IMG/VR virus record: IMGVR_UViG_3300046011_004931
Span: 1-35,575 of that record
DNA length: 35,575 nucleotides
Strand: one strand, 5' to 3'
Source of the DNA: a virus
Shown: positions 1-35,575 of the stretch, piece by piece
How the letters are laid out: each line of letters opens with the position of its first letter
Position numbering within the stretch: position 1 is the stretch's first letter
Position numbers and translations under genes: made by a program
The notes under the pieces: model-generated
What the model was told of the DNA's origin: nothing
Seen by the model: the letters and a program-made list of their open reading frames with translations, nothing else
Database searches by the model: none

Positions 1-6
1 AAGAGG

Positions 7-159
7 TATCTTTAAAACTCTACTTATACAAGAGAGAAAGATCAAATTATAAAGTAATAGGAAAACGCCAAAAAAAGGCGCATCGCGCACAAAAGGCGCA
101 CTTCACCCAAAAAACAGGAAAAATGAGCCCAATCAGTGACAACATGTCTATTCAGACCA
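7..159. repeat. Terminal direct repeat, left copy
   Basis: These 153 bases are identical to 35423-35575 at the right end. The first six bases of the window do not match the bases before the right copy, so the repeat starts at base 7. The copy contains the leader and the first 37 bases of the DnaA-like gene. It most simply reflects circular closure of the assembly, from a circular or circularly permuted genome. A true short direct terminal repeat is the alternative, but coding sequence inside it makes that less attractive. Confidence 0.9.
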
Positions 160-5845: not shown

Positions 5846-6997
5846 ATGAGCGAGATCAAAGAAATCATCGAGACCCTCGAGCCCAAGATCAAGGGCTTCA
5901 AGGAAGAGCTGGCGGCCGACGTCGCCAAGCTGGACAGCAAGCTGGCCGCCGACGTGGCCCAGCTCAACGAGGACGCCGCCAAGAAGAGCGAGACGCTCGG
6001 CGAACTCAAGGCAAAGGTTGACGCCCTCGCCGCGAAGAACGGCAAGATGGTGGCCGGTGCCATCGAGAAGGCCGGGTGGAACAACTCCGACTTCATGAAG
6101 AGCGGTGTCATGGACATCGTCGCCGAGAACTTCGACAGCATCCGCAACGAGAAGCCCTTCTCCTCGCAGAAGATCGTCGGCAACATGACCATGATCGACA
6201 ACCTCACCGGAACCAGCCAGGTTTCCTACGTGCAGAACCCGATCATGAGGTCGTTCTTCAACCCGCACCTGTATGACGTCTTCCGCATCGTGCCCACCGC
6301 CACCGGCAACGTCACCTTCCCCAGGGGCAAGAGCCCCGTCGGTGAGGGTTCCTTCGGCGCGCAGACCGAGGGCAGTGCCAAGGCGCAGGTCGACTACGAC
6401 GTGGAGATGGTGAACGTGTCCGTCCCATTCATCGCCGGCTACGCTCGCGTAAGCCGTCAGATGTTGCAGGACCTTCCCTTCCTCCAGTCCTATCTGTCGC
6501 AGAGCCTGATCGAGGACTGGAACCGCGCCGTCAACGTGCGCTTCCTGAACTCCATCGCGACCAACTCGACCGCCCTGTCCACCTCGCAGACGCTGACCGT
6601 CGCCAAGATGATCGACGGCATCGCGCAGCACGGTAACCTCGGCCTCGGCAACGCGAACCTGATCCTCACCACCTGGCCTGCATGGAGCACGCTGCTTCTG
6701 ACCAAGCCCAGCGACTTCTCCGTGCCCGCCTCCGTGGCAGTGGACCAGTCCGGTGCCATCAGGATCAACGGCATCCCCGTCGTTCCCCACAGCCAGGTGA
6801 CCGGCTCGAGGTTCTACGTCATGAACACCAACGCCTTCGGCATCGCCCAGGCGAGCGGTCTTCAGGTACGCAGCACCGAGTTCAACGAGGACGACTTCGT
6901 GAAGAACCTGATCACCTACAGGGCAGAGGCTCGCATCGAGCTCCTCGCCTTCCAGCCCACCGCTGCCGTCTACGGCGCAACGGGCACCGCTTCCTAA
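5846..6997 (+). CDS. Major capsid protein (HK97 fold)
   Basis: The main shell protein, 383 residues. Residues 1-75 are a Lys/Glu/Ala-rich coiled coil with heptad repeats (ELAADVAKL-DSKLAADVAQL), matching the delta/scaffold domain the upstream protease would remove. The remainder has HK97-like features: the N-arm/E-loop region rich in Asn/Thr, RVSRQMLQDLPFLQSYLS for the spine helix, and the C-terminal P/A-domain strands ending in AAVYGATGTAS. Strongly biased GC-rich codons fit high expression. A terminator follows 25 bases after the stop. Confidence 0.95.
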   Translation: MSEIKEIIETLEPKIKGFKEELAADVAKLDSKLAADVAQLNEDAAKKSETLGELKAKVDALAAKNGKMVAGAIEKAGWNNSDFMKSGVMDIVAENFDSIRNEKPFSSQKIVGNMTMIDNLTGTSQVSYVQNPIMRSFFNPHLYDVFRIVPTATGNVTFPRGKSPVGEGSFGAQTEGSAKAQVDYDVEMVNVSVPFIAGYARVSRQMLQDLPFLQSYLSQSLIEDWNRAVNVRFLNSIATNSTALSTSQTLTVAKMIDGIAQHGNLGLGNANLILTTWPAWSTLLLTKPSDFSVPASVAVDQSGAIRINGIPVVPHSQVTGSRFYVMNTNAFGIAQASGLQVRSTEFNEDDFVKNLITYRAEARIELLAFQPTAAVYGATGTAS

Positions 6998-7022
6998 CCC
7001 TCTCCGGGAAGCCACAAAGAAA

Positions 7023-7054
7023 GGGGCCGGCCATAGTGCCGGTCTCCTTTTTTT
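7023..7054 (+). terminator. Rho-independent terminator after the capsid gene
   Basis: A nine-pair stem (7023-7031 with 7038-7046, including two G-U pairs) with a six-base loop CATAGT. One further C, then a seven-T run, ends at 7054. It separates the abundant head-gene transcript from the glycosyltransferase cassette, so the cassette is probably read at a lower level or from its own promoter. Confidence 0.85.
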
Positions 7055-7056
7055 GC

Positions 7057-7064
7057 TATTTTTG
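7057..7064 (+). promoter_or_regulatory. Possible Bacteroidota -7 box before the glycosyltransferase cassette
   Basis: TATTTTTG matches the Bacteroidota -7 element TAnnTTTG. It lies directly after the terminator T-run and only four bases before the ATG at 7069. There is no TTG at the expected upstream distance. If functional, it would give a leaderless or nearly leaderless transcript. It could be chance in a T-rich stretch. Confidence 0.3.
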
Positions 7065-7068
7065 ACAC

Positions 7069-7686
7069 ATGAGCCTAAACCAACACTTCGACAAGGTCGT
7101 GGTGCTAACCCAAAAAAAGCGCATCGACAGGCAGTACCTTTTCACGCAGATGGCTGAGGAGATCGGCCTCTCGTTCAAATGGTTCTACGCCATCGAGGAC
7201 GAGAACCCCAAGAAGTCCTTCAACCTCTCCCATAAGGCGATACTGACGCAGTTCACCGAGAGCAACCTTAACACGCTCTTGGTTCTCGAGGACGACTGCG
7301 ACCTTCGCAACCTCGACAAGCTCGATAGCATCATGCGGGCGGCGCCTGAGCAGTGGGACCTCCTTTATTTCGGGGCGAACCTGAAGCCGACTCCCGAGTT
7401 CACGCCTCCCGAGAAGGAGAACGAGCACTGGTACTCCATCACAAACGCCTACTGCACCCACGCCATCGCCTACGACAAGGGTGTCGCGGGTTACATTGCC
7501 AGGAACTACGACGGAGAGACCATGTACGACGCATGGCTCGACACCAAGCTGTCGCTTATGCAAGCCTTCTGTTGCTCTCCATTCCTCGCCTACCAGCGGC
7601 CGACCCGCTCCGACCTGTGGGACAGGAACGTGGACTACACGGACACCTTTCAAGCGAGTGAGGACTACCTAAAAACTATACCATGA
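7069..7686 (+). CDS. Glycosyltransferase family 25-like protein
   Basis: A 205-residue protein with the layout of LPS-type GT25 transferases. It has an N-terminal strand KVVVLTQKKRIDR, then FNLSHKAILTQ (51-61), the metal-binding acidic motif LVLEDDC (71-77, Asp/Glu 74-76), and WDLLYFGANL near 105. YCTHAIAYDKG in the C-terminal half matches the acceptor-side segment. GT25 enzymes transfer galactose or related sugars from nucleotide donors onto lipooligosaccharide or protein. It is the first gene of a six-gene overlapping cassette and shares its stop region with the next ATG. The acceptor is unknown; host surface glycan and virion protein are both possible. Confidence 0.83.
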   Translation: MSLNQHFDKVVVLTQKKRIDRQYLFTQMAEEIGLSFKWFYAIEDENPKKSFNLSHKAILTQFTESNLNTLLVLEDDCDLRNLDKLDSIMRAAPEQWDLLYFGANLKPTPEFTPPEKENEHWYSITNAYCTHAIAYDKGVAGYIARNYDGETMYDAWLDTKLSLMQAFCCSPFLAYQRPTRSDLWDRNVDYTDTFQASEDYLKTIP

Positions 7687-7940
7687 GTAAACAAACAGCA
7701 GTACAGTATTTGATTGAATTAATTAGAAAAGGTGAAAAATTAGAAATTACACCTACTAAATGCGGTCACATGATTTATGCGGAAGATGACATAATTGAAA
7801 AGGTTTTACAAATGGAGAAAGAGCAGATAATCGCAGCATGGAACGAGGGCATTTATCATACTTTGGACAAAGAATATTTGACAAAACCGAGATATAAAGA
7901 TGCCGAAGACTATTACAATAAAGTCCACAGCCAGCCATGA
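7683..7940 (+). CDS. AT-rich small hypothetical protein, 85 residues
   Basis: A small charged protein with MEKEQIIAAWNEGIYH in the middle and a Tyr-rich end. I have the impression of similar small proteins with a 'MEKEQII-A-EG' core in other Bacteroidota phages, but no function is known to me. The base composition is clearly more AT-rich than either neighbour, with AAA/ATT/TTA codons dominating, which indicates a separate origin. It begins with an ATGA overlap with the preceding transferase and ends with the same overlap into the next gene, so it is translationally coupled in the cassette despite looking foreign. Confidence 0.7.
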   Translation: MSKQTAVQYLIELIRKGEKLEITPTKCGHMIYAEDDIIEKVLQMEKEQIIAAWNEGIYHTLDKEYLTKPRYKDAEDYYNKVHSQP

Positions 7941-8641
7941 TCTACCACGTCTCCTACGCGTCCATTAATATGTCTAAATCACTGGACATTTGTCGCGCCT
8001 CCGCCCTACGGCATGGCTGCGATGCGACGCTGAACATCGACATCGACCCGGACTTCGCCGCACACAACCGGCACATCCTCGAGCAGCCGAGGGGGGCGGG
8101 GTACTGGCTATGGAAGCCGTACATCATCCACAGGGCCCTGATGGACTTTACCGTGCCGGGCGACTACATCGTCTACACCGACGCAGGCGTGGAGTTTGTC
8201 GCCAACATCAACCGCATCATCGACGAGATGGAGCGCAACGGCGAGGACATTTTCCTCTTTGGCAACCACTACCTACACCGCGACTGGTGCAAGCGCGAGG
8301 TCTTCGACGCGCTGAACTGCAAGGACGGCCATCAGGTGCAGGCCTCGGCAATGGTCTTGAGGAACAGCGAGAACGCCATGTACCTCGTTGAGGAGTGGCT
8401 CGAGCAATGCCAATACGGGAACCAAATCGACGACAACTGCGGACCCAATCAATACCCATTCTTCCGGGAGCACCGCCACGATCAGGCGATACTGACGGCC
8501 GTGGCGCAGGCGATGAACCTGAAGCTGCACTGGTGGCCTGCCATGTACAACGGTGGGGCGTTCGTATACGACAAAGGCACCTACACGGATGACTATCCGG
8601 TTATCTTCCACCATCACCGAAAAAGGAACGACGAATGGTGA
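7937..8641 (+). CDS. Putative glycosyltransferase (unclassified, GYWLWKPY family)
   Basis: A 234-residue protein with the signature of a poorly characterised bacterial and phage transferase group. It has RGAGYWLWKPYII at 52-64, then GDYIVYTDAGVEF at 75-87, where YTDAG carries the DxD-like metal site expected in a GT-A fold. The C-terminus has FHHHRKRN, plausible for the metal- or diphosphate-binding His of GT-A enzymes. Such genes usually sit in capsule or LPS clusters. It overlaps the next gene by seven bases. Donor and acceptor cannot be predicted. Confidence 0.75.
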   Translation: MIYHVSYASINMSKSLDICRASALRHGCDATLNIDIDPDFAAHNRHILEQPRGAGYWLWKPYIIHRALMDFTVPGDYIVYTDAGVEFVANINRIIDEMERNGEDIFLFGNHYLHRDWCKREVFDALNCKDGHQVQASAMVLRNSENAMYLVEEWLEQCQYGNQIDDNCGPNQYPFFREHRHDQAILTAVAQAMNLKLHWWPAMYNGGAFVYDKGTYTDDYPVIFHHHRKRNDEW

Positions 8642-9378
8642 CCTTTGCGCAGCTCGGCCGCTACGGCCGCCTCGGGAATCAGATGTTCCAGGTGGCCTCA
8701 ACCATCGGCATCGCCAAGGCCAACGGCTACGAATACGCCTTTCCCGAATGGGTCAATCACGACGCGGCTGAGCGGTTCGGAAGCAAGGAGGACGTGAGCG
8801 TAGGCGAATGGTTTCCGAATTGGAAACATGTGCCGCGACTTGACCGAGAGCTCCCCGACTACCACATCCCTTGGGGGTGGCATGGCCTCAACCACCCCGA
8901 CGACGTCAGCCTCGTCGGTCACATGCAGAGCGAGCGTTACTTCGCCCATTGCGCCGACTACATTCGGGAGCTGTTCGCCATGGACGACGACAAGGCCAAG
9001 GTGCCCTATACAGCCGTACATGTCAGAATGGGCGACTATGGCAGCTCCTACCATCCCATCTGCCCCTACGACTACTACGGGTCGGCGATGCACAGGATGA
9101 AGGGCCGCTTCATGGTCTTCTCTGACGAACCCGAGCGCGCGTGGAAGATGCTCAAGCCTTTGCTTGGCCCCGACGATGTCCTCTTCCACGGGGACACCCG
9201 GCAGGCGTTCCGCCGAATGAAAAAGTGCCACGCCCACATCATCGCCAACAGCACCTTCAGCTGGTGGGCGGCATGGCTGGCTGGCGGCGAGGTCATCGCA
9301 CCGAGCGAATGGTTCGGACCTGACGCCGCCCATCTCGACACCCTTGACATCTACCCTAATTCATGGACGGTAATATGA
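8635..9378 (+). CDS. Glycosyltransferase family 11 (alpha-1,2-fucosyltransferase-like)
   Basis: The most recognisable enzyme of the cassette, 247 residues and slightly short for the family. It has the N-terminal GRLGNQMFQVASTIGIA (11-27), GHMQSERYF (95-103), the nucleotide-sugar motif VHVRMGDY (128-135), VFSDEPERAW (161-170) and NSTFSWWAAWLAGG (205-218). Family members transfer L-fucose from GDP-fucose to galactose. The usual HxRRxD motif reads H-V-R-M-G-D here, so its second Arg is Met. That may alter donor use or activity. No GDP-fucose synthesis genes are present, so donor sugar would come from the host. It ends in an ATGA overlap with the DUF3310 gene. Confidence 0.9.
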   Translation: MVTFAQLGRYGRLGNQMFQVASTIGIAKANGYEYAFPEWVNHDAAERFGSKEDVSVGEWFPNWKHVPRLDRELPDYHIPWGWHGLNHPDDVSLVGHMQSERYFAHCADYIRELFAMDDDKAKVPYTAVHVRMGDYGSSYHPICPYDYYGSAMHRMKGRFMVFSDEPERAWKMLKPLLGPDDVLFHGDTRQAFRRMKKCHAHIIANSTFSWWAAWLAGGEVIAPSEWFGPDAAHLDTLDIYPNSWTVI

Positions 9379-9593
9379 GTGCATTGGACAAGCAGGAAGG
9401 TGGCGGACACTACAAGGAGTTCACCATTCAACCCATCGAGTTCATCCACGTGAACGGCATCCCATACATCGAGGGCAACGTCATCAAGTACATCTGCCGT
9501 TACAAGATGAAAAACGGCATCGAGGACCTACTCAAGGCCAAGCATTACATCGACCTGTTGATTGAGATGGAATACCAAAAAACCGACCAATGA
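9375..9593 (+). CDS. DUF3310 protein
   Basis: A 72-residue protein with the DUF3310 pattern: GGHYKEFTIQPIEFI, then GNVIKYICRYKMKNGIEDLLKA, then the helix HYIDLLIEME. These small proteins are very common in phages and are often labelled nucleotide kinase-like, but their activity is unproven. I chose the ATG at 9375, which overlaps the fucosyltransferase stop as ATGA; an ATG at 9363 would add four residues. It lies between two glycosyltransferases, which is unusual since DUF3310 genes normally sit in early metabolism regions. Confidence 0.9.
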   Translation: MSALDKQEGGGHYKEFTIQPIEFIHVNGIPYIEGNVIKYICRYKMKNGIEDLLKAKHYIDLLIEMEYQKTDQ

Positions 9594-10576
9594 ACATCCT
9601 CGCATCAGTCCACCTGTACCCGCCCGAGCACCTTTGCGGTGCCGAGTTCATGCTGCACGGAATCCTCAAACATATGCAGAAGCAAGGGCACACGGTCAAG
9701 GTGCTGCTCCACCAGGCGAACCAGTACAAAATCACCGAACACTACATCTACGACGACGTTGACGTCTTTCCGCCCGACCAGAACACAATCATGAACCTTT
9801 TCCGGTGGGCTGACGTGGTTATCACCCACCTGGACTACACCTCGTGGACGATACACATGGCGGCGGTGCAGCGGGTGCCGGTGGTGCACCTGATCCACAA
9901 CACCCACCCGTACATCCATATCATGGAGGCCGAGAAGCCTCAGCACATCGTGTATAACGCACAATGGGCGGCCGACAAGCTCAAGTATCCGCACGCCAGC
10001 ATGGTGCTCCCTCCGCCCGTCGACCCGGATGTGTATAACGTAGGCAAAGATTCTTCGACCAATGACGCCATCACTTTGATAAATTTGGACACCAACAAGG
10101 GTGGGCACATCCTCCGCGCAATAGCCGAGGCCATGCCCGACCGAAAGTTTATCGGGGTTGTTGGGTCCTACAGCGAGCCGCACAAGGACGGGCAGCATAC
10201 GAACCAGCCGACAAACGTTGAGGTGCTACCGAAGCAGCCCGACATCAAGAAGGTCTATGAGAGAACGAGGATTCTGATAATGCCGAGCCAGTACGAGAGC
10301 TGGGGGCGGACGGCCACCGAGGCCATGTGTAGCGGCATCCCTGTGATTTGTACGAGTACCCCTGGTCTGCTTGAGAATTGCGGAGAGGCGGGATACTACA
10401 TACAGGACAGGAGCAAGATTATCGACTGGGTCAAGGCCATAAAGCGGCTCGATGACAAGAAAATCTATGCCGCCGCATCTAAGAAAGCGAAGGAGCGAGC
10501 AGCCGCCCTGGACCCGAAAAAGAACCTACACCACCTCGAAAAATTCATGCAAAACGCAATCGCCACCTACCGATGA
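9590..10576 (+). CDS. Glycosyltransferase family 4-like protein
   Basis: A GT-B fold transferase of 328 residues. The N-terminal Rossmann half contains CGAEFMLHGILKHMQKQGH (16-34), the usual acceptor-side motif. The C-terminal half has the donor-binding segment MPSQYESWGRTATEAMCSGI (231-250), with the EX7E pair Glu236 and Glu244, followed by PVICTSTPGLLENCG. GT4 enzymes are retaining transferases using UDP-, GDP- or ADP-sugars in polysaccharide and glycoprotein assembly. It closes the cassette and overlaps the head-tail connector gene by four bases, so the cassette is read into the tail genes. Confidence 0.9.
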   Translation: MNILASVHLYPPEHLCGAEFMLHGILKHMQKQGHTVKVLLHQANQYKITEHYIYDDVDVFPPDQNTIMNLFRWADVVITHLDYTSWTIHMAAVQRVPVVHLIHNTHPYIHIMEAEKPQHIVYNAQWAADKLKYPHASMVLPPPVDPDVYNVGKDSSTNDAITLINLDTNKGGHILRAIAEAMPDRKFIGVVGSYSEPHKDGQHTNQPTNVEVLPKQPDIKKVYERTRILIMPSQYESWGRTATEAMCSGIPVICTSTPGLLENCGEAGYYIQDRSKIIDWVKAIKRLDDKKIYAAASKKAKERAAALDPKKNLHHLEKFMQNAIATYR

Positions 10577-11076
10577 ACCTTCTGATAGCCAAGGAGATAC
10601 AGCAGGACCTGACGAGCGAGCCGCTGTCATTGGCCGAGGCGAAGGCGGCGATGAAGGTGAACTTCACGGACGATGATGCGTATATCTCAGACCTGATCGT
10701 GACCGCCCGGCTGTGGCTCGAGAATTTCACGGGCAGGCAGCTCGGGACGAAGGTCATCAACTTGGTCGTGGAGATGACCGCCCATGACTGGTACGAACTC
10801 CCCGGCCCCGTGCAGGGAGTGGTCAGCGTTACGATGGACGGCGATTGTGTCGACTATAAGCAGTACGGCGACCAGCTGATGGTCTACTACCCTGGCATCC
10901 ACGAGATACTGCTTCAGTGTGGCTACACCACGGTCCCGGAGGACTACATGACCGACCTCAAGCGCATCGTCGCATGGTCTTATCAAAACAGGGGCATCGA
11001 CCTCTCCAACGAGGCGGCGACCCTCACCGACTTCCCCGAACTTATGACATCCTACCATAAGAAGCTCGTCATCTGA
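10573..11076 (+). CDS. Head-tail connector protein (gp6-like)
   Basis: A 167-residue protein. The N-terminal LTSEPLSLAEAKAAMKVNF and DDAYISDLIVTARLWLENFTG are typical of the phage connector family that forms a ring below the portal (HK97 gp6, SPP1 gp15). The middle is beta-rich, and the end returns to helices. It restarts the structural operon after the glycosyltransferase cassette, which has therefore been inserted between capsid and connector genes that are adjacent in most related phages. Confidence 0.88.
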   Translation: MNLLIAKEIQQDLTSEPLSLAEAKAAMKVNFTDDDAYISDLIVTARLWLENFTGRQLGTKVINLVVEMTAHDWYELPGPVQGVVSVTMDGDCVDYKQYGDQLMVYYPGIHEILLQCGYTTVPEDYMTDLKRIVAWSYQNRGIDLSNEAATLTDFPELMTSYHKKLVI

Positions 11077-11642
11077 TGGCAAAGGGCATCATCACCTTCA
11101 GACTCGACGGCGTCCAAGACGCCATCAACCGCCTGGCGAAGGTCGGCGGTCAGGTGGCGGAGGACGTGGAGGACGAGCTGGCGGCGGGGGCCAACGACAT
11201 TATCATATCAGCGGAAAGGAATCTGCAAAGGCAGGACCTTTTCGTGAGCGGAAATTTGGCAGGATCGAGATATGCCAAGCAGATAGCTCCACTTCGGTTC
11301 GAGGTTGGATTCAACGCCTTCCATGCGCCTTTCATAGAGTTCGGCACCCGTGGGAAGGTGCAGATACCTCCGGCCATGCAGGAGATAGCTGCCAAAATCA
11401 AAACCCGAAGAAGGGAGAAGGAAGGCAAGTTTGCCGACATGGTGCTGGCGATCCTCGAATGGGGTGGGAAAAAAGGATTGTGGGACGCCAATGACAAGAA
11501 GAGCAAGGGCCGTGCATTCATGATGGCGCGCAGCATCTATCGCAACGGCATTGCGCCGCAACCGTTCCTCTACCCCGCCTACGTCGAGAACAGGAAAAAG
11601 ATCATCGAACGCATAAAGAAGGTCGTTGAAAAACCCAGGTAG
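11076..11642 (+). CDS. HK97 gp10-like tail/neck protein
   Basis: A 188-residue protein with N-terminal LDGVQDAINRLAKVGGQVAE and a central FHAPFIEFGTRGKVQIPP segment, the 'a-fiEfGT' signature of the HK97 gp10 family. It also has APQPFLYPAY near residue 165, the usual C-terminal 'PFL-PA' motif. It acts at the head-tail joint or tail end during assembly. The start shares one base with the previous stop. Confidence 0.88.
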   Translation: MAKGIITFRLDGVQDAINRLAKVGGQVAEDVEDELAAGANDIIISAERNLQRQDLFVSGNLAGSRYAKQIAPLRFEVGFNAFHAPFIEFGTRGKVQIPPAMQEIAAKIKTRRREKEGKFADMVLAILEWGGKKGLWDANDKKSKGRAFMMARSIYRNGIAPQPFLYPAYVENRKKIIERIKKVVEKPR

Positions 11643-12051
11643 GGCGATACGAGATGCATACACCGCCGCGCTGGCGAACCTGACCTACCAAGGGCAGGCC
11701 GTCACCGTGTACGACAACGTGCCGTTCGAGACGACGCCCGACAGGTATGTCTACATCAACGCCGTCGACTACAGCCAAACGGGCAACAACCAGCTTTTCA
11801 TCCACGACGGCTCCGTCGCGCTTGACGTGGTGTGTAAGCAGTACAAGAAGATGGACCTGGACGCGGTCGACGACATCGCCGAGCTGGTACAAAACGCCAT
11901 CCTCGCCCTGCCGACCTCGACCGTGACCGACGCCAACTATCAAATCATCGCACCGACCATCGAGTCGGCCCGCTACTTGCAGGAGCAGGACGGGGCGTAT
12001 CATATCGTCAGGAAAATCATCAGGTTCACTCAATCCTTAATCCAAAAATAG
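11626..12051 (+). CDS. Tail completion / terminator-like protein (TTG start)
   Basis: A 141-residue protein in the position of tail completion proteins (gp11/gp17-like, DUF3168-like). The pattern NPGRAIRDAYTAALANLTYQ, then PFETTPDRYVYI, fits those families, which cap the tail tube and join it to the head. The only start giving the conserved N-terminus is TTG at 11626, inside the previous gene. The nearby ATG at 11654 is out of frame. The frame runs without gaps to two bases before the next ATG. Confidence 0.72.
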   Translation: MKNPGRAIRDAYTAALANLTYQGQAVTVYDNVPFETTPDRYVYINAVDYSQTGNNQLFIHDGSVALDVVCKQYKKMDLDAVDDIAELVQNAILALPTSTVTDANYQIIAPTIESARYLQEQDGAYHIVRKIIRFTQSLIQK

Positions 12052-12053
12052 AA

Positions 12054-12494
12054 ATGGGACAGATCCAAGGAACACTTCAGAACATCGAGGTCGACTTCAC
12101 CGGGGCGGGCTCGAGCTACAAGGCTCTCGTCTGCCTCCGCACCTCCTCGGTCAATACGACCGTGGCTGTGACGGAGGATGAGACCAACTGCGGCAAGCTG
12201 ACCAGCGTCGGCGAGCCGGGTTTCAGCTTCGACTTCGACGCGGTATGCGAGGTCAGCCCGACCGTGTCGCAGGCATCGTACGACGACTGCCTTTCCGCCA
12301 TCGTCGCCAAAACCAAGGTGAAGGTGCGCTTCTCGTCGCCCGTGGTCACCGGCTCCTCCCTTGGTGCCGCTTATCACCACGAATGCGAGGCGTTCTTCAC
12401 CGACCTCACGCTCAATCAGGATGCGGCAGGCGGTGCGTACATCTCATTCTCCGGCACGATTCAGTCGACGGGCACGCTCGACATCGTTCCGTAA
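12054..12494 (+). CDS. Probable major tail tube protein
   Basis: A 146-residue beta-rich protein with Ser/Thr/Val-rich strands and few Lys. It lies between tail completion and tail chaperone genes, the standard place for the tube subunit. FSGTIQSTGTLDIVP at the end resembles the closing strand of tube domains. I recognise no exact family signature, and a second tube-like protein is encoded at 16923. The call depends on order, size and composition. Confidence 0.65.
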   Translation: MGQIQGTLQNIEVDFTGAGSSYKALVCLRTSSVNTTVAVTEDETNCGKLTSVGEPGFSFDFDAVCEVSPTVSQASYDDCLSAIVAKTKVKVRFSSPVVTGSSLGAAYHHECEAFFTDLTLNQDAAGGAYISFSGTIQSTGTLDIVP

Positions 12495-12516
12495 CCAAAC
12501 CTAAACCAACCAGCCT

Positions 12517-12888
12517 ATGGGCAATGGATACGTCCAGATGGACATACTTGGGCGAAAGCGTGGCCTCAAGTTCGGCATGCTCGCCGTCCACAGGATCACG
12601 ATGGACGCGCAGAAGCTCGGGGCGACCTTGGGCGAGAGTATCGACTACGCCCTCGTGCCGGTCATCCTGTACTGGGGCCTGTTCAACAACGCCTACATCA
12701 AACGCGAAGACCCCGACTTCAGTTTCGAGGAAGTGGTCGAGTGGGTGGACGAGCACATCAACGAACCCGAGCAGTTCACGGAGGTCGTCAAAGCCTTCTA
12801 CGAGAGCAGGGCGGTGACGGGCAAGCAGCCGGAAGGGGACGAAAAAAAAAGTTCGACCTCGAAACCGAGGAAGGCTGGGAAGAGTTGA
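12517..12888 (+). CDS. Tail assembly chaperone, short form (gpG-like)
   Basis: A 123-residue acidic helical protein (FEEVVEWVDEHINEPEQF), just before the tape measure gene as in lambda gpG. It ends in a Lys/Ser-rich tail after a run of nine A residues where ribosomes can slip. Lambda-type chaperones coat the tape measure protein during tail assembly and are absent from the virion. Confidence 0.82.
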   Translation: MGNGYVQMDILGRKRGLKFGMLAVHRITMDAQKLGATLGESIDYALVPVILYWGLFNNAYIKREDPDFSFEEVVEWVDEHINEPEQFTEVVKAFYESRAVTGKQPEGDEKKSSTSKPRKAGKS

Positions 12889-17600: not shown

Positions 17601-18427
17601 TGTACGGCTCGAGGACATACACGGTAACGGACGCACAGCCCTACATCGACACGGTGGGGGTCATAGCGCAGGACGTGGTCATCATCGACCGCAACGGCAT
17701 CGGCGTCCGGCACACCAACGCCTTCGGAGGCACACAGGTGGCCGACGTCTACACTTATGAGTGGTACGGCGTCAAGTTGGGCAGTCTGTCGAGCGGCAAC
17801 TGGATGATAACATTGTCCAACGTTCTTTCGGGAGGCGTCCGCACAATCCTCTACGAGTTCGGTCCCACCCCGACGGCGGGCAGCACCTACAGCGTCTACT
17901 ACGGCAGCACGATCGCCAAGTACACCGTGCAGACGGGCAACAACACCGCCGCCGTCAGGAACGGCCTCAAGTCGGCCATCGACGCGGCCTCATGGGGCAC
18001 GACGGTCACCACCACGGCCGTGAGCACCAACAGGCTCCAAGTGGTCATCACCGGCGCGGTCGTGAACTTCACCACCCAGCTTGGTACGCAGAAGTTCAAG
18101 AAGGGCCGCTACGTGACAATCAGCGGCATCAACTACATCATCATCGAGCAGGAGAGCCCGACGGCCTTCCCCGTGCTCCCTTCCGTCGCCGCGTCCTACG
18201 CCTTCGGGTCTCTGACCGCCATCGTGGGCACGGTTCAGAACTACCTGAACGAGCCGCTGACGGCCTCCACATACAGCGCATCGCTGACGACATCCACCAA
18301 CATCACGGGCCTGCCCGTGGTGGGGTCGGTCACGCCCGGACAGGCGGTCGTCGACGAGTCGGCGCAAAGGATATGGTTCGACTCAACGCTCAACTTCGGA
18401 GAAGTCATAAAAGTCTTTCAGAAATGA
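17600..18427 (+). CDS. Baseplate/tail tip hypothetical protein
   Basis: A 275-residue protein rich in Thr, Val, Ser and Gly, predicted beta structure throughout, with no recognised motif. It starts YGSRTYTVTDAQPYIDTV after the Met. The ATG at 17600 overlaps the previous stop as TGATG; the in-frame ATG at 17573 would overlap more. Residues about 75-84 (LSSGNWMITL) resemble the end of the previous protein (GAGEWILTIYVD), suggesting a shared repeated domain. It overlaps the fibre gene as ATGA and is probably the fibre attachment or baseplate part. Confidence 0.6.
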   Translation: MYGSRTYTVTDAQPYIDTVGVIAQDVVIIDRNGIGVRHTNAFGGTQVADVYTYEWYGVKLGSLSSGNWMITLSNVLSGGVRTILYEFGPTPTAGSTYSVYYGSTIAKYTVQTGNNTAAVRNGLKSAIDAASWGTTVTTTAVSTNRLQVVITGAVVNFTTQLGTQKFKKGRYVTISGINYIIIEQESPTAFPVLPSVAASYAFGSLTAIVGTVQNYLNEPLTASTYSASLTTSTNITGLPVVGSVTPGQAVVDESAQRIWFDSTLNFGEVIKVFQK

Positions 18428-21400
18428 GAATACTCGGTTACATTTTAGTGGTACTTTTTGTTACCACTTCGGCCATGGGTCAGCAGATCAACCCTGTGCC
18501 CGACTACATCTTCCGCAACCAGATGTCGGTGGGAAGGAACGCTCCCACGGACACCGCCGCCTACCTGTCGGTCGGTCCCCGCTACGGCGCGAACAAGGGC
18601 CTGATGCCGCCCATGGTGGTGGACACCAACGCCGTGACGGGGACGAAGAGGAACGGCCTGCTGATATTCTCCGTTCAGCTGAATAACTTCGCCTACTGGG
18701 ACAGCACGACCTCGAGGTTCCGGCAGATCACGGCGCAGGCAGTAGTGGACTCCTTGGTGTTCTCGACCCGTGCATGGAGGAAGAAGGGCGATGACAGCCT
18801 CGGGGCGGTCATAGCCACACGGACGGACACGGCTTTGCTGTCTACGAGGGCATACAGGCAGAAGGCGGTGGACAGCCTCGTGACACTTATCTCCACCCTC
18901 GGAGGCGGCACCGTCCTCTCGGTCAGCGCAGGGACGGGGATGAACTTCAGCACCATCACGACATCGGGGTCTGTATCGGCCGATACCTCCGTCCTCAGCA
19001 CCCGCGCCTGGAGGAAAAAGGGCGATGACTCCCTTGGTGCGGTCATCGCCCTCAAGGTCAACATCTCGGACACCTCCACGATGCTTGGCGCGTACCTCCG
19101 TAAAGCCGATACCACCTCTATGTTGTCTCCATACCTCCGCAAAACGGATACGACCGCCATGCTGTCTCCTTATGTCAGAACCGCAGGCTATGGCTTGCTG
19201 AAGGGTACACAGACCTTATCGGTTGACTCCGCAACTATTGCCACCCGTGCAAGGGTTCAGAAGGGGATAGATAGCGTGGCATCGCTTGTCGCTGCACCCG
19301 ACTCTGTCGTGTTCAGCACCCGTGCATGGAGACAGAAAGGCGTTGACTCCGTTGCTGCACTCGCGAACACGAAGGCAACTGCAACGGGTACGACAAACTA
19401 CCTATCCAAGTTCACCGGGACATCATCTTTGGGCAATTCCATCGTCTACGCCACCACAAGCGAGGTCGGAATATCAACGCCGTCTCCCACCCACCCTCTG
19501 GACGTAAACGGGCGGGCAAGGGTGCGGACGATAGATAGCACCGCCACGGGCATGAACATGCTCTACGCCGATGCGGACGGGGTCATCAAGAAGGCCGCCA
19601 TCCCAGCGGGAGGGTCGGGGTCTGTCACATCGGTCGCAGCAGGCACGGGCATGTCGTTCAGCACAATCACCACGACAGGGTCGGTCAGCGCGGACACGGT
19701 GGCGTTGAGTACGAGGGCGTGGAGGCAAAAGGGCATCGACTCCGTGGCAGCGTTGAGCAGGGTGACGGGGAGTGGGACAACGAACTACGTTGCAAAGTTC
19801 ACGGGGTCTACCGCGGTTGGGAATAGTTCGATATTTGATGATGGGGAAGTCAGGTTAGGAATGACTGCCGATAGCGGTCAGTACATTTTGCAAGCAACAG
19901 GAAATATTTATGCAAGCGGCGCCGCTCGTTTTGGAACAAGCAGAGTTCCATCCGCTGGAACAGTAAGGGTTCTCGCCAAAGGGGCAGGCGTTCAGGATAC
20001 TTACATGCAATTTGAAAATGGTGCAGGAGCCGGAGGACTAATTGGAAGTCGGTCTGGTGGTGGATTGAATTTTTATACTTTCACAGGAACCACAGGGTCC
20101 GAAACATACAGCGACATAATAATGAATGTCAACAATGGTAATGAATTAGTCATCGGCACCACAACCGACGCAGGCGACCACAAACTCCAAGTCGCAGGCT
20201 CGATCTACAACACCACGGGGGCGGTCTTCGCTGCGAGTAGTGGGAATGTAGGGGTGGGGACGGCGAGTCCTTCGGCTAAATTTGAAAACTATACATCAAT
20301 AGGAACGAAGCCAACTTTGGGAGATATAAGTGAAAACTACGCTATTGTATCAGGAGACAATAGAACAGGTACAGCAAGCGTAAGCGGTAATTTTGCAACG
20401 ACACTTGTGCTTGCTTCAAATACGAATAGTTTTTCCGCAGGCAATGGGGCATCCATGGGATTCCACTCCAAATGGAATAGTGGATTATACACATCATCGG
20501 CTCAATTCGCCTCTGTTTTCGGTGGCAAGGAAAATTCCACGGATGCGAATCTCGCAGGATATTTTTCTATTGCAACAAGGCCCGCTGGTGGAAATCCAAC
20601 AGAGAGAATGAGAGTGTCATCAACGGGCGATGTAGGCATCAACACCACCTCCCCCTCCGAACGCTTGCACGTTTCAGGCTCGGCCGTCAATGTAAGGGTA
20701 TCCAACGCCGCTAACAACGTTTACGTCAACCACGCATCGGACGGCATATTCTCGGTAGGTGGCCCTCTCACCTTGTTCGCGCCCACATCGCAACCGCTGA
20801 TTTTGTCATCGGGCAACGGGGAGGCCGCGAGGTTCACCGCCGACAAGGAATTGCTGATAAACACCACTACTGACGCGGGGGACTATCGTCTGCAAGTTTC
20901 GGGGGCGATATACAACACCACGGGGGCGGTGTTGGCTGCAAGTAGTGGGAGTGTGGGGATTGGCACGGCGAGTCCTGCAAATAAATTACACGTTGTATCA
21001 AATGTAAACACAAGCGGATATGCATCCGCATCGGCTGGGAACGGCCACATCAGATTGAACCCACTAAACCAAGGGCCCGGAGATATATTTTATGAAATTG
21101 GAGCATTAAACTCACCTACATCTCATTATTGGCATCAAACATTTTTGCGAAACGACGGAACGGCTGGTGGAAATTTAATATTTCAGCCAAGCGCAGGCAA
21201 TGTGGGCATCGGCACCACCTCCCCCTCCGAACGCCTTCATATCAACGGTCGCGCCCGCATCGCCACCATCGACTCCTCCGCTTCTCCATCTAACATGTTG
21301 TGGGCGGATGTCAACGGGGTGGTACGCAAAGCAGCCGTCCCAAGCGGTAGCAGCGGCACGGTGACCTCCGTGGCGGCGGGGGTAGGCATGGCGTTCACCA

Positions 21401-22410
21401 CCATCACCACCACGGGCAGCGTGGCGGTGGACACCGTGTCCATCTCAACACGGGCGAGGGTCTACAAGACGATAGACTCAATGAAAGTTGCAGGGTATAC
21501 TAACCTCTACAACTCCAACGGAACGCTGACAGGTAACAGGGTGATATCAAAGAACGGGAGCAACCTAACGCTAAGTGGAGATGTGGGTGAGTTCCGGGTG
21601 GAGAACGCAGCGGGCACGAACAGGGTGGCGGTGACAAATGACGCGATTATCGCTACAGGCACATCCCTTACCCTCTTTGCGCCGTCCGCTCAGTCACTCA
21701 TCCTGTCCTCAGGGAACGGAGAGGCGGGAAGGTTCAACGCGGACAAGGAGTTCCTAATCGGCACTTCATCCGATGCGGGCGATTATAAACTGCAAGTCAA
21801 CGGCAACGGATACGTATCGGGAAGGATGAACATAGCATCTGTGGATTCGTTCTCAACGGCTCAAAACATGCTCTTCGTTGACAACGATGGCCGCATCAAA
21901 AAAGCAGCCGTGCCTTCGGGAGGTGGCGGTGGAGTGACATCGGTTGCCACAGGGTTCGGCATTGACGGAGGAACTATTACATCCACGGGAACGCTGACCG
22001 CCGACACGGTAGAGATGGCAACCCGTGCGCGCGTGCAGAAGGGGATAGACTCGGTCGCTGGACTCGCACGGGTGACGGGCAGCGGAACCGCGAACTATTT
22101 CCCGTATTGGACGGGAACGACCGCACTCGGCAATTCGGAGATGTATCAACTAAACTCCGAGGTGCTGGTGGGATACACCTCCGACCAAGGCGCGTTTAAA
22201 TTGCAAGTAAACGGCAATACCTTCACAAATGGTCATATTAGAACATCTGCGCCATCAGGAGGAACGGCGGCGAATTGGAAACTTGGTAGCAGGGTCGCAT
22301 CATCTGTGGTACTTGACGGAACGCAATACATCGAGGTGGACATAGGTGGGACATTGTACTACCTTGCCACCGTCTCATTCCTTGAACCCAAACCCAAACC
22401 AAACCCGTAA
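18424..22410 (+). CDS. Large repetitive tail fibre with signal-peptide-like N-terminus
   Basis: A 1328-residue fibre, probably the receptor-binding protein. The ATG at 18424 overlaps the previous stop as ATGA. The in-frame extension further upstream is a shadow of the preceding gene. Residues 1-20 (MRILGYILVVLFVTTSAMGQ) look exactly like a Sec signal peptide with a cleavage-type AMG-Q end. The body has eight copies of 'STRA(W/R)..K..DSV', four of 'VTSVA-G-GM-F-TITT-GS' and three longer modules ending in a KAA(V/I)P-GG hinge. It also has 'GIGT-SPSERLHV' units typical of trimeric phage fibres. AT-rich stretches interrupt the GC-rich frame. There is no S74 chaperone domain; the end is EPKPKPNP. 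Confidence 0.85.
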   Translation: MRILGYILVVLFVTTSAMGQQINPVPDYIFRNQMSVGRNAPTDTAAYLSVGPRYGANKGLMPPMVVDTNAVTGTKRNGLLIFSVQLNNFAYWDSTTSRFRQITAQAVVDSLVFSTRAWRKKGDDSLGAVIATRTDTALLSTRAYRQKAVDSLVTLISTLGGGTVLSVSAGTGMNFSTITTSGSVSADTSVLSTRAWRKKGDDSLGAVIALKVNISDTSTMLGAYLRKADTTSMLSPYLRKTDTTAMLSPYVRTAGYGLLKGTQTLSVDSATIATRARVQKGIDSVASLVAAPDSVVFSTRAWRQKGVDSVAALANTKATATGTTNYLSKFTGTSSLGNSIVYATTSEVGISTPSPTHPLDVNGRARVRTIDSTATGMNMLYADADGVIKKAAIPAGGSGSVTSVAAGTGMSFSTITTTGSVSADTVALSTRAWRQKGIDSVAALSRVTGSGTTNYVAKFTGSTAVGNSSIFDDGEVRLGMTADSGQYILQATGNIYASGAARFGTSRVPSAGTVRVLAKGAGVQDTYMQFENGAGAGGLIGSRSGGGLNFYTFTGTTGSETYSDIIMNVNNGNELVIGTTTDAGDHKLQVAGSIYNTTGAVFAASSGNVGVGTASPSAKFENYTSIGTKPTLGDISENYAIVSGDNRTGTASVSGNFATTLVLASNTNSFSAGNGASMGFHSKWNSGLYTSSAQFASVFGGKENSTDANLAGYFSIATRPAGGNPTERMRVSSTGDVGINTTSPSERLHVSGSAVNVRVSNAANNVYVNHASDGIFSVGGPLTLFAPTSQPLILSSGNGEAARFTADKELLINTTTDAGDYRLQVSGAIYNTTGAVLAASSGSVGIGTASPANKLHVVSNVNTSGYASASAGNGHIRLNPLNQGPGDIFYEIGALNSPTSHYWHQTFLRNDGTAGGNLIFQPSAGNVGIGTTSPSERLHINGRARIATIDSSASPSNMLWADVNGVVRKAAVPSGSSGTVTSVAAGVGMAFTTITTTGSVAVDTVSISTRARVYKTIDSMKVAGYTNLYNSNGTLTGNRVISKNGSNLTLSGDVGEFRVENAAGTNRVAVTNDAIIATGTSLTLFAPSAQSLILSSGNGEAGRFNADKEFLIGTSSDAGDYKLQVNGNGYVSGRMNIASVDSFSTAQNMLFVDNDGRIKKAAVPSGGGGGVTSVATGFGIDGGTITSTGTLTADTVEMATRARVQKGIDSVAGLARVTGSGTANYFPYWTGTTALGNSEMYQLNSEVLVGYTSDQGAFKLQVNGNTFTNGHIRTSAPSGGTAANWKLGSRVASSVVLDGTQYIEVDIGGTLYYLATVSFLEPKPKPNP
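19501..22140 (+). repeat. Modular repeats inside the fibre gene
   Basis: Three long protein modules recur at about 19501-19830, 21241-21500 and 21814-22140: GRAR/IDS, then NMLYAD-DG-I/V-KKAA, then the VTSVA block, then the STRA block. A second unit, LTLFAP to DAGDY-LQV, occurs near 20767 and 21667. A third, IYNTTGAV to GTASP, occurs near 20203 and 20909 with long stretches of near-identical DNA. The repeats could support recombination that changes fibre length or tip. Confidence 0.85.
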
Positions 22411-24114: not shown

Positions 24115-24506
24115 AGTATGCAATCATGGTGCTATGTGCAATAATTGCACTCAATGCACAGGGACAGAGAAAGACGGCCGTCAACAACCAGTCCGCCGTA
24201 GTGGACAGCGTCAAGGCACCGAAAAGAAAAGGCATCGACGTCAACCCGGTCAAGGTATGGAAGGACGGCAAGACGGTCGACGGCGTGGACCTTGACGTGG
24301 ATGTGGCCTACGAGGACCTGGACAAGATGGTCCGCTTTTACTACCAGCTCAAGGACAGCGCGGGCGTTCAGATAGCGAACGGAAACGTGGAGGTCACGGG
24401 CAAGGACTACGACGACTACAAGACCCTTCCTAATCACGCCCAGCGAGCCTACAACATCGTCCTGCGCCACCTTCGTCTACAACAAAAACCCACAACTCAG
24501 AACTGA
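24111..24506 (+). CDS. Exported hypothetical protein, 131 residues
   Basis: It begins with a classical signal peptide (MKYAIMVLCAIIALNAQGQ) followed by a soluble charged domain with acidic repeats around DGVDLDVDVAYEDLDKMVRF. No family is recognised. Together with 18424, 22410 and 24892 it makes four products with export signals in 6.5 kb. The ATG at 24111 overlaps the previous stop as ATGA and the end overlaps the holin start as TGATG, so it is translated with the lysis genes. A periplasmic function during lysis or at the envelope is plausible. Confidence 0.68.
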   Translation: MKYAIMVLCAIIALNAQGQRKTAVNNQSAVVDSVKAPKRKGIDVNPVKVWKDGKTVDGVDLDVDVAYEDLDKMVRFYYQLKDSAGVQIANGNVEVTGKDYDDYKTLPNHAQRAYNIVLRHLRLQQKPTTQN

Positions 24507-24895
24507 TGAACAAGGAAACCATCTTCACCATCGCCCGTACGCTGCTCACCAGCGTAGGCGTGTTTTTGATCGGAAAGAATTTCCTCGGGCATGCCATCGA
24601 TCAGGTATTGTGGCAGATGCTCGTGGGTATCGCCATGTCGGCCTTCTCGGTCGTGTGGGGCATGTACGACAAGACCCTCGGACTTGAGATGCTTCAGAGC
24701 TTCATCAGGTCGGCAATCATCGGCCTCGGAGGCCTGCTCGTAGCAAAGGGCAGCCTGTCGCCCGAGAAGCTCGAGAGCATCCTCGGCATCGCCCTGGCTG
24801 TCCTTCCGCTGGTGTACTCCATCCTGTCTAAAAAGAAGAGCACCGAGCTGGCGGAAGGTTACATCGAGCCGAGCGCACTCAAGACACTCAAGTGA
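24506..24895 (+). CDS. Holin-like membrane protein
   Basis: A 129-residue protein with three or four hydrophobic helices: residues about 9-27, 31-50, 66-82 and 89-106. They are followed by a charged soluble tail starting SKKKSTELAEGYIEP. Size, helix count and position directly before the spanin and endolysin fit a holin that opens the inner membrane at the end of infection. No sequence family is named because holins are too divergent to recognise by eye. Confidence 0.7.
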   Translation: MNKETIFTIARTLLTSVGVFLIGKNFLGHAIDQVLWQMLVGIAMSAFSVVWGMYDKTLGLEMLQSFIRSAIIGLGGLLVAKGSLSPEKLESILGIALAVLPLVYSILSKKKSTELAEGYIEPSALKTLK

Positions 24896-25371
24896 GCAAA
24901 TCCTTCGCATACGGGGTTTTTTGGATCGGGGCGGTGGCCTTCGCTGCCGCCCTGTCCTGCAACCCCGCCAAGCATGCGCTGAAGCAGAAGGAGCTGATCG
25001 ACGAGGCCATCGCCAAGTGGGTGCTGGAGAACCCGGTCCCTATGAGCGAGATCGTCGTGCCGGGCGACACGTTGCGCATAGCCGACACCACGTGGTTGCC
25101 GTACCTCGTGTGGGACACCATCGTGGAGAAGGACACGGTGCGCATCGTGCAGATACGCTACCGGACCATAACCGAGCGTCAGACCATCCGCGACACGGTC
25201 ATCAGGACCGTGAACAACACCGAGGCCATCATCCGCCTGTCCGACGAGAAGAACCTCCTTCAGGGCAAGCTCTATGGGTCAGAAAAAACCCAGGAGAGGC
25301 AGAGATGGTGGATCATATTACTCATTGCCCTGACCATAGTGCTGCTACTGAGCCACATAAAAAGAAAATGA
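24892..25371 (+). CDS. Candidate one-piece spanin (u-spanin)
   Basis: A 159-residue protein with GTG start, coupled to the holin gene as GTGA. The N-terminus is a lipoprotein signal ending in the lipobox ALSC with Cys23. The C-terminus is a membrane helix, WWIILLIALTIVLLLSHI (139-156), with a basic end KRK. The periplasmic part has beta strands and repeated TVR/TIR dipeptides. An outer-membrane lipid at one end and an inner-membrane helix at the other is the architecture of unimolecular spanins such as that of phage T1, which fuse the two membranes in the last lysis step. This supports a Gram-negative host. The function is inferred from architecture only. Confidence 0.75.
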   Translation: MSKSFAYGVFWIGAVAFAAALSCNPAKHALKQKELIDEAIAKWVLENPVPMSEIVVPGDTLRIADTTWLPYLVWDTIVEKDTVRIVQIRYRTITERQTIRDTVIRTVNNTEAIIRLSDEKNLLQGKLYGSEKTQERQRWWIILLIALTIVLLLSHIKRK

Positions 25372-26333
25372 GGATAAAGGATTTGTGCCTGTCGTACCGC
25401 GAGAAGTACGGATGGGAGATGCCCAGCCTGAAACTCGCGCGGATTATTTACAAAGACAACAAGGAGACTTTCAAGGACGTAGAGGCCGTGCGTGCGGCAC
25501 TGAGGAGGTTGGAAGGCAAGGCATCAGCAACGCAGATACCGAGCAAGATCGTACCCGAGCGACCAAGGAACCCATACAACCTACCCGATAGTGAGGAGAC
25601 CGTCTACGATCCGTTCCCTATTGCTGCAAAGCGCGTACTGGTCCTTTCGGATGTTCACGTGCCCTATCATAGTTTGGACGCGCTTACTGCGTGCTTCGAT
25701 TATGCAAAGAACGAGAAACCGGATGCGGTACTTCTGAACGGCGATGCCATCGACTTCTTCATGCTCTCTCGCTTCGTCAAGGACCCTAAGGGGAGGTCGT
25801 TCGCACATGAACTCGACGCGTTCAGGAAGCTGTTCGAGGTCATCGCCACCATCTTCGACTGCAAGGTGTACTTCAAGCTCGGAAACCACGAGGAGCGGTA
25901 CGACCACTTCCTCTACACCAAGGCGGGCGAGCTCGACGGCGTGGACGAGTTCAAGCTGGAGAACATCATCAAGGCCCGGGCAGAGGGAATCGAGGTAATT
26001 GGCGGCAAGCGGGTCATCAAGCTCGGAGACCTGAACGTCCTCCACGGCCATGAGTTCGGAGGCAGCATCTTCAGTCCCGTGAATATCGCGCGCGGTCTGT
26101 TCTTGCGAGGAAAAGTGAGCGCCATGCAGGGCCACAACCATCAGACCAGCGAGCACACGGAGAGCAACATGAACGGGGACATCACCACCACGTGGTCGCT
26201 GGGGTGTCTGTGCGAGCTGCACCCAGCCTACCTCCCCATCAACAAATGGAACCACGGATTTTCCATCGTCGACGTGGACGGAAACAACTTTCACGTGCGA
26301 AACAAGCGCATCCACAAAGGTGTGATACTATGA
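25368..26333 (+). CDS. Calcineurin-like metallophosphoesterase
   Basis: A 321-residue enzyme with all family motifs: SDVHVPYH (Asp95, His97), NGDAIDFF (Asp126), GNHEERYDH (172-180), HGHEF (His226, His228) and GHNHQ (255-259). Residues 1-80 form an extra helical N-terminal region that may bind nucleic acid. Members hydrolyse phosphodiesters of DNA, RNA, cyclic nucleotides or phosphoproteins. The GNHE-GHNH pattern resembles phage phosphoesterases whose substrate is unknown. It lies between spanin and endolysin, an odd place for a nucleic acid enzyme. The ATG at 25368 overlaps the spanin stop as ATGA; the longer upstream frame is a shadow. Confidence 0.88.
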   Translation: MRIKDLCLSYREKYGWEMPSLKLARIIYKDNKETFKDVEAVRAALRRLEGKASATQIPSKIVPERPRNPYNLPDSEETVYDPFPIAAKRVLVLSDVHVPYHSLDALTACFDYAKNEKPDAVLLNGDAIDFFMLSRFVKDPKGRSFAHELDAFRKLFEVIATIFDCKVYFKLGNHEERYDHFLYTKAGELDGVDEFKLENIIKARAEGIEVIGGKRVIKLGDLNVLHGHEFGGSIFSPVNIARGLFLRGKVSAMQGHNHQTSEHTESNMNGDITTTWSLGCLCELHPAYLPINKWNHGFSIVDVDGNNFHVRNKRIHKGVIL

Positions 26334-27103: not shown

Positions 27104-27134
27104 TTGTTTATTTTATCAAAGGTTCTTATCTTTG
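27104..27134 (+). promoter_or_regulatory. Early promoter, Bacteroidota type
   Basis: TTG at 27104-27106 and TATCTTTG at 27127-27134, separated by 20 bases, fit the known TTG-N19/20-TAnnTTTG consensus. It follows directly after the lysis terminator and lies 27 bases before the ATG at 27161, so it should drive the early/replication operon. Confidence 0.78.
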
Positions 27135-27160: not shown

Positions 27161-27370
27161 ATGAACACCATGAAACTCTCCACCCAGTCAGTCGCAAACA
27201 GCGATGTTACTCACGAGGTAACTTTGTTGAGCCGGTCAGAAAAGACCGCCGTCATTATCGACGAGTTCGGTAAGACGAAGCGCTGCAAGATCTATACCTC
27301 ATCGATTACCGGGAAGGACTACATCATGCCATACGGCACTTTCCTCACCGCTCCATCCTTCGATCTTTGA
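27161..27370 (+). CDS. First early protein, 69 residues
   Basis: A small mixed alpha/beta protein, VTHEVTLLSRSEKTAVIIDE then KTKRCKIYTSSITGKDYIMP. No family is recognised. It is the first product of the early promoter, where phages often place host-takeover or anti-defence genes. An internal ATG at 27170 is an alternative start and would drop three residues. Confidence 0.68.
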   Translation: MNTMKLSTQSVANSDVTHEVTLLSRSEKTAVIIDEFGKTKRCKIYTSSITGKDYIMPYGTFLTAPSFDL

Positions 27371-35283: not shown

Positions 35284-35538
35284 TATTAGGTTATTTACTA
35301 ATATCCTATCTGCGAAGGTGCACCTTTTTGTGGCAAGTGCGCCTTTTTTGGGTTCTCGAAAAAAGAAGCACCACCTGTAACTCCTTGATAATCAATAAAC
35401 CATACTATTAGTGTACCTTTTTTATCTTTAAAACTCTACTTATACAAGAGAGAAAGATCAAATTATAAAGTAATAGGAAAACGCCAAAAAAAGGCGCATC
35501 GCGCACAAAAGGCGCACTTCACCCAAAAAACAGGAAAA
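35284..35538. other. Candidate replication origin (intergenic, crosses the circle join)
   Basis: The largest non-coding stretch, 255 bases between the primase-helicase stop and the DnaA-IV gene. In order it holds a stem-loop (GATATTAG / CTAATATC, 35282-35305), two inverted iterons, an AT-rich core at about 35353-35470, and two direct iterons. Flanking replication genes on both sides support an origin. The AT-rich core also contains TATCTTTA (35423-35430), one base off a -7 box, which may serve the DnaA-IV gene. No TTG lies at the right distance. Confidence 0.6.
35319..35516. repeat. Four iterons AAAAGGYGCA flanking the AT-rich core
   Basis: The ten-base unit AAAAGGYGCA is on the minus strand at 35319-35328 and 35338-35347, and on the plus strand at 35489-35498 and 35507-35516 (also seen as 73-82 and 91-100 in the left copy). 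Spacing within pairs is 19 and 18 bases, near two helical turns. The first is part of a perfect 12-base palindrome AAGGTGCACCTT. A weak partial copy, TGCACCCTT, lies at 35271. Confidence 0.75.
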
Positions 35539-35575
35539 ATGAGCCCAATCAGTGACAACATGTCTATTCAGACCA
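35423..35575. repeat. Terminal direct repeat, right copy
   Basis: Identical to bases 7-159. It includes the right half of the AT-rich origin core, two iterons and the first codons of the DnaA-IV gene. One copy should be removed when the genome is drawn as a circle. Confidence 0.9.

Follow-up and report, generated by a model that had tools for sequence, protein, structure and literature searches.

Between the genes for the major capsid protein (MCP) and the head-tail connector of a virus record from IMG/VR, four glycosyltransferase (GT) genes form a cassette that is probably a virion-glycosylation module fixed in this slot, as judged from gene content, gene order and comparison with relatives. 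The whole stretch analysed, referred to here as the window, comprised 35,575 bases; its contig ends overlap by 153 bases and the genome therefore looks complete, with a probable length of about 35.4 kb. According to Pfam and PHROG scans, the cassette was preceded by genes for the large terminase, the portal, a MuF-like protein, an S78 protease and the HK97-type MCP, and was followed by connector, tail-completion, tail and tail-fibre genes and then by lysis and replication genes. No integrase was found in these scans among the large ORFs of the genome, in agreement with the preliminary description of this DNA. A nucleotide search of phage records with the window returned no match, and Rfam and tRNA scans found nothing. 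The host probably belongs to Bacteroidota, since the MCP relatives in isolates (Flavobacterium, Cellulophaga), two MAG contigs (contig binning is weak evidence for a host) and the TANNTTTG motifs described below all point to this phylum.

Layout of the cassette and its enzymes

The features of the slot and its borders are listed in Table 1. The preliminary description had placed four GT genes, a DUF3310 gene and an AT-rich gene at 7069-10576 in the MCP/connector slot, and these coordinates were right. It had also stated that all junctions overlap. This holds from the GT25 gene to the connector, where the successive overlaps were 4, 4, 7, 16, 4 and 4 bases, mostly ATGA, but not between MCP and GT25, which are separated by a gap of 71 bases that holds a terminator-like hairpin. 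Since the translational-coupling overlaps run on into the connector and tail genes, the cassette does read into the tail genes as proposed.

Table 1 Features of the MCP/connector slot in the window
Feature	Positions	Strand	Basis
Major capsid protein (MCP), HK97 fold, upstream border	5846..6997	+	PF05065 6.8e-14; phrog_10 7.4e-24
MCP C-terminal tail GATGTAS, candidate Ser/Thr glycan acceptor	6974..6994	+	Tail type vs cassette type
Terminator-like hairpin with T-run, MCP/cassette gap, putative step-down or boundary of expression	7023..7046	+	Relatives count; fold -25.4 kcal/mol (7014-7056)
TATTTTTG, match to Bacteroidota -7 promoter motif TANNTTTG, lead only	7057..7064	+	Relatives count
GT25-like glycosyltransferase, 205 aa	7069..7686	+	PF01755 21.6 bits; structure-profile matches; EDD invariant
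AT-rich gene (AT85), 85 aa, apparent recent passenger	7683..7940	+	34.5% GC; no family
GYWLWKPY-type (GYW) glycosyltransferase, predicted GT-A fold, 234 aa	7937..8641	+	AlphaFold pLDDT 87.5; Foldseek
GT11 (alpha-1,2-fucosyltransferase family) enzyme	8635..9378	+	PF01531 2.5e-16; phrog_2644 4.2e-49
DUF3310 protein, passenger in some relatives	9363..9593	+	PF11753 1.1e-13
GT4 glycosyltransferase, core gene of the slot	9590..10576	+	PF00534 8e-17; phrog_26352 5.9e-70
Head-tail connector (gp6-like), downstream border	10573..11076	+	PF05135 4e-8; phrog_442 6.2e-14

The GT25-like protein of the window scored just below the PF01755 cut-off of 24 bits, and its homologue in a relative (L021) scored above it, at 26.4. 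The profile of this family matched the structures of mimivirus R655, which was its best PDB match, and of procollagen galactosyltransferase (2e-7 to 1.6e-6), and its EDD motif was invariant across the relatives. The GYW protein had no GT match in Pfam. However, its AlphaFold model matched GT-A enzymes in Foldseek (E 2e-7 to 5e-5), the best matches being LARGE1, XXYLT1 (xyloside xylosyltransferase), alpha-1,3-GalT and LgtC, and according to this model the protein is an unclassified glycosyltransferase of the GT-A fold. A sub-threshold match to TIR (0.026) was overruled by the model. Two motifs of the GYW protein, YxDAG and GAGYWLWK, were nearly invariant across the relatives. Membership of the third enzyme in GT11 was indicated by PF01531 and by an HxRxGDY motif that was invariant in the relatives, and the GT4 profile covered both domains (PF13439, 5.9e-8, in addition to PF00534), with a PS.YESWG-type motif that was invariant or nearly so. 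By families, fold and motifs, the four GTs are thus of different types, as had been claimed, and intact.

Conservation of the slot and variation within it

Relatives were collected by an MCP-only search, which gave 80 contigs, and by a GT4-alignment search, which gave 480 contigs; 80 of the latter were retained. A GT4 gene lay between MCP and connector, directly upstream of the connector, in 87 of the 87 distinct contigs covering the slot, a count made on loci retrieved via MCP but also via GT4. The order GT25-GYW-GT11-GT4 was kept in 36 of them and was the usual set at MCP identities of at least 64%; other relatives, down to about 50% MCP identity, carried a methyltransferase or a short GT25 relative together with GT4, and one (L070) had GT4 alone. 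The search for the same slot in related phages, suggested as a check in the preliminary description, therefore had a positive outcome. Furthermore, the same four-GT order was present in phage contigs of Saprospiraceae (MCP 30%) and Taibaiella (MCP 27%) MAGs. The cultured Flavobacterium phage 11b and Cellulophaga phage phi10:1 (MCP about 30%) were without an annotated GT in the slot, and such virions can therefore do without the trait. Judged from these comparisons, the GT cassette is ancestral to a large clade. No prior description of this gene arrangement was found in the open-access literature.

All four GTs are under purifying selection. The median dN/dS was 0.089 for GT4, 0.105 for GYW, 0.125 for GT25 and 0.127 for GT11 (range 0.09-0.13), and 0.098 for the MCP. 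At the same time, alleles of the outer GTs are exchanged among phages whose MCPs are 99% identical. For example, the window and the relative L003 share 99% identity in the MCP, yet only 65% in GT25 and 68% in GT11; similarly, L108 and L121 are 98% identical in the MCP, 99% in GT4 and 100% in the connector, but 76% in GT11. Methyltransferases come and go in the GYW-GT11 gap, where SAM-type enzymes were found in L003, L021 and L049 and DNA N6/N4-type enzymes in L004 and L008, and FkbM or other methyltransferases occurred upstream of GT4 in L074 and L051. Sugar-type methyltransferases (FkbM and others) are among these additions, which fit with a built glycan. An exposed glycan under diversifying pressure would be expected to show such a combination of constant core and variable periphery.

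The slot also recurs beyond the clade. The next-best GT4 homologues in bacterial genomes came from regions resembling prophages in Streptomyces, Kitasatospora, Sphaerisporangium and a Steroidobacteraceae MAG, and at ten bacterial-genome loci the immediate neighbours of the GT4 homologue were the MCP gene on its upstream side and a head-tail adaptor gene on its downstream side. In searches that started from such MCPs and ignored GT4, GT4 adjoined the MCP in about 106 of 115 distinct loci (four Ser/Thr-tailed MCPs first scored as lacking a GT were found to carry GT4 and were counted so). In the Streptomyces phage TurkishDelight, a tandem GT4 (gene 20) follows shortly after the MCP. This phage and the Streptomyces and Kitasatospora prophages share with the window a homologous GT4 gene behind that of the MCP, which in the prophages immediately precedes the connector gene, but they have only GT4 (single, tandem or paired), and GT25, GYW and GT11 were not detected in them by profiles. 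In phages of different phyla, some temperate and some apparently lytic, the GT4 gene is thus linked to capsid genes, which argues for a virion-related job, although slot conservation alone does not name the substrate of the GTs.

The most serious alternative, itself unlikely, is that the enzymes remodel host surface glycans (LPS, capsule, glycoproteins) late in infection, against superinfection or re-adsorption of progeny to debris. In its favour, bacterial gene clusters for surface glycans often contain GT25, GT11 and GT4 enzymes, the annotation of GT25 refers to LPS biosynthesis, and allele swapping would fit matching to host strains. However, the position between MCP and connector is fixed in phages of unrelated hosts, the genome has no detectable integrase, and an effect confined to the late phase of a lytic cycle would have little time to act. 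In addition, hydropathy analysis (highest 19-residue value 0.96) and Pfam/PHROG scans found no membrane segment, flippase or bactoprenol-GT in the cassette. Seroconversion of the gtrABC type was rated low, with neither a gtrA/B family match nor an integrase in the Pfam/PHROG scans and with no membrane segment. Virion glycosylation fits better than seroconversion because there is no integrase and no membrane or flippase protein and because the slot recurs in unrelated phages.

Some genes of the slot do not belong to this conserved set. AT85 has 34.5% GC, compared with 56.6% for the genome, had no family match in Pfam and PHROG scans and was found, among the relatives, only in the window and in one identical contig (L002), and the DUF3310 gene was present in 6 loci of relatives. 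From this distribution both look like later passengers, and a DNA methylase and an HNH gene were likewise found in the slot of some phages. The earlier view of the cassette as an insertion can accordingly be kept for AT85 and DUF3310 but not for the GTs, which are ancestral to the clade. These four genes would also suit a tolerated landing site for morons behind a terminator, at which GTs with assorted host-directed roles had collected and the position had no meaning. We consider this improbable, since it explains the passengers but not the universal GT4, and it was ranked below virion glycosylation: passengers come and go, unlike GT4, which was present in every relative covering the slot, the GTs are kept with low dN/dS, and the same GT4 family occupies the same slot in other phage lineages.

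Glycosylation of phage DNA bases against restriction is very unlikely, as GT25, GT11 and GT4 are to our knowledge not families of known DNA glycosyltransferases, PHROG/Pfam scans that covered the main ORFs of the genome found no hydroxymethylase or other modified-base genes, and the cassette sits with virion rather than replication genes. What speaks for it is that DNA modification by phage GTs is known (see the discussion in PMC12619734) and that L004 and L008 carry the DNA methylase within the cassette.

The hairpin after the MCP gene and the MCP tail

A hairpin with a T-run was found directly 3' of the MCP gene in 75 of 81 distinct relatives, as against 1 of 81 shuffled sequences, and the same hairpin type was never seen after ten other operon genes (0/643). 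The hairpin was kept although the stem sequences differ widely among the relatives. The conserved terminator-like hairpin suggests that the cassette belongs to the connector/tail transcript and not simply to that of the MCP; most likely it lowers transcription after the capsid gene, with the GTs sharing the level of the connector and tail genes. The proposed co-expression with structural genes is thus supported by the overlaps for connector and tail, but not for the MCP, from which the cassette is separated by the hairpin. It is possible that the cassette has its own transcription start. The TANNTTTG motif occurred within 90 nt after the MCP gene in 40 of 81 relatives versus 5 of 81 shuffles, although matches of this kind are made more frequent by the T-run, and the TATTTTTG copy of the window had no spaced -33 motif.

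The C-terminus of the MCP is a candidate acceptor. Within the clade, the MCPs of phages with the four-GT set ended in [TAQ][TS]GT(A,S) in 36 of 36 cases, and most of those with a GT4 plus methyltransferase set ended in SAS. MCPs beside a short GT25 and GT4 ended in AI (16/16, 15-16 distinct MCPs), as did those of six further clade loci in which GT4 was the only GT found. A Ser/Thr-bearing C-terminus was seen in the window (GATGTAS) and in most of the relatives, but not in the AI group. The distant four-GT phages had the tails VIS or AIM. Outside the clade, in a sample from viral contigs and Streptomyces genomes, about 108 of 113 MCPs beside GT4 had Ser or Thr as last residue, compared with 13 of 56 MCPs without GT4. 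The Fisher p of about 1e-22 for this association is clade-structured and so invalid as an independent test. A simple rule by which tail type predicts cassette type was weakened by the distant phages (L157 and L158) and by the same clade structure. The predicted MCP structure (pLDDT 67.7) was too poor for placing the C-terminus. The association of tail and GT4, together with the glycans reported at capsid and tail-tube C-termini of mycobacteriophages (PMC12619734), makes the Ser/Thr tail a testable acceptor, as a lead that has exceptions in AI, VIS and AIM.

Likeness to known systems and proposed mode of action

Among tailed phages, capsid glycosylation has been demonstrated for a few mycobacteriophages. 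Virion glycosylation of Che8, Corndog and Myrna is attributed to Freeman et al. (2023) in PMC12363180, PMC12619734 and PMC11256854; according to the first of these, capsid glycosylation in Che8 requires gp110. In our scans gp110 belonged to PF01755 (1.2e-7), its neighbour gp108 had a methyltransferase domain, and the Che8 MCP ended in KTGS. Like the window, Che8 has grouped phage-encoded GTs, among them a GT25-type enzyme of PF01755 that may be a counterpart of the window's GT25-like protein, and the methyltransferase domain recalls the relatives of the window; the direct hhalign match between gp110 and the GT25 family of the window was weak (probability 18.6). Unlike in the window, the Che8 GTs are located near the right end of the genome, a long way from the capsid gene, and are of the GT2 and GT25 types, not of the GT11, GT4 or GYW type. 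The host phylum also differs, and the virion glycan is established in Che8 but deduced from genes in the window. The closest phage homologues of the window's GT11 (up to 40% identical) are cyanophage enzymes of phrog_2644, which, unlike it, occur in large cyanophages beside nucleotide-sugar epimerases.

We know of no chlorovirus or mimivirus in which glycosylation genes are tied to the capsid gene as in the window. These viruses glycosylate capsids or fibres autonomously (PMC4691112), with a virus-encoded GT set and methyltransferase that make a complex glycan on a virion protein, as we read the window, but they are eukaryotic giant viruses and also make nucleotide sugars.

The target, sugars, order of action and benefit that we infer for virion glycosylation would be as follows. 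Late in infection, soluble cytoplasmic GTs would draw on nucleotide sugars of the host, with GDP-fucose as the probable donor for the GT11 enzyme, and before lysis would assemble a short oligosaccharide directly on one of the virion proteins. GT4 would be the core enzyme, and GT25, the GT-A enzyme, GT11 and the methyltransferases of some relatives would provide variable outer sugars. The acceptor would most likely be the MCP, possibly at its Ser/Thr-bearing C-terminal tail, with the tail tube as second candidate. The hairpin after the MCP gene would keep the capsid protein in excess, with the GTs on the lower-level connector/tail transcript.

More tentatively, a GT4 gene between capsid and connector in phages of Bacteroidota, actinomycetes and others could be the sign of a phage class with glycosylated capsids that is widespread but has gone unrecognised. 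In such phages GT4 might act on or near the Ser/Thr tail of the MCP. In the clade of the window, three further GTs that can be swapped, with methyltransferases in some of the phages, might turn this into a variable coat of several sugars, comparable to serotype switching. If the cassette does glycosylate the capsid, such glycosylation would be common in uncultivated phages, as the 480 contigs from one GT4 search suggest, and would be recognisable by gene order alone, and the coat would be diversified through allele swapping while the capsid stays constant. The cassettes would be a source of cytoplasmic protein glycosyltransferases for glycoengineering, and the role of phage capsid sugars in natural waters, such as resistance to grazing, sticking to particles or avoidance of empty adsorption, would become a question that can be asked.

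Genome ends and gene content of the window

The two contig ends (window 1-159 and 35417-35575) share a direct overlap of 153 bases, preceded by six mismatched bases at the window start. Because of this overlap, the genome is probably complete. The top matches of the tail-fibre-like protein were partial and weak. An intergenic TTG-N20-TATCTTTG was found at 27104-27134, upstream of the small genes at 27161, and is a candidate Bacteroidota-type promoter for the second gene block.

Genes in the window and extra genes in relatives' cassettes
Feature	Source	Position	Remark
Tail-fibre-like protein, 1549 aa	window	17761-22410	
Holin, Pam3 gp28 family	window	24506-24892	
Metallo-phosphoesterase	window	24921-26333	next after holin
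Possible endolysin	window	26536	after metallo-phosphoesterase
DNA N6/N4 methylase	L004	4461-5060	inserted, GYW/GT11 gap
DNA N6/N4 methylase	L008	12492-13097	inserted, GYW/GT11 gap
NUMOD4/HNH endonuclease	L157 (Saprospiraceae-MAG phage)	6699-7205	within glycosyltransferase cassette

Cassette variation among relatives

Sister contigs of the related phages L004 and L008, about 86-91% identical to them, were without the methylase. In the Streptomyces prophages L159, L160 and L161 (~9000-12650), two GT4 genes flanked the head-tail adaptor, one on each side, giving the order MCP-GT4-adaptor-GT4.
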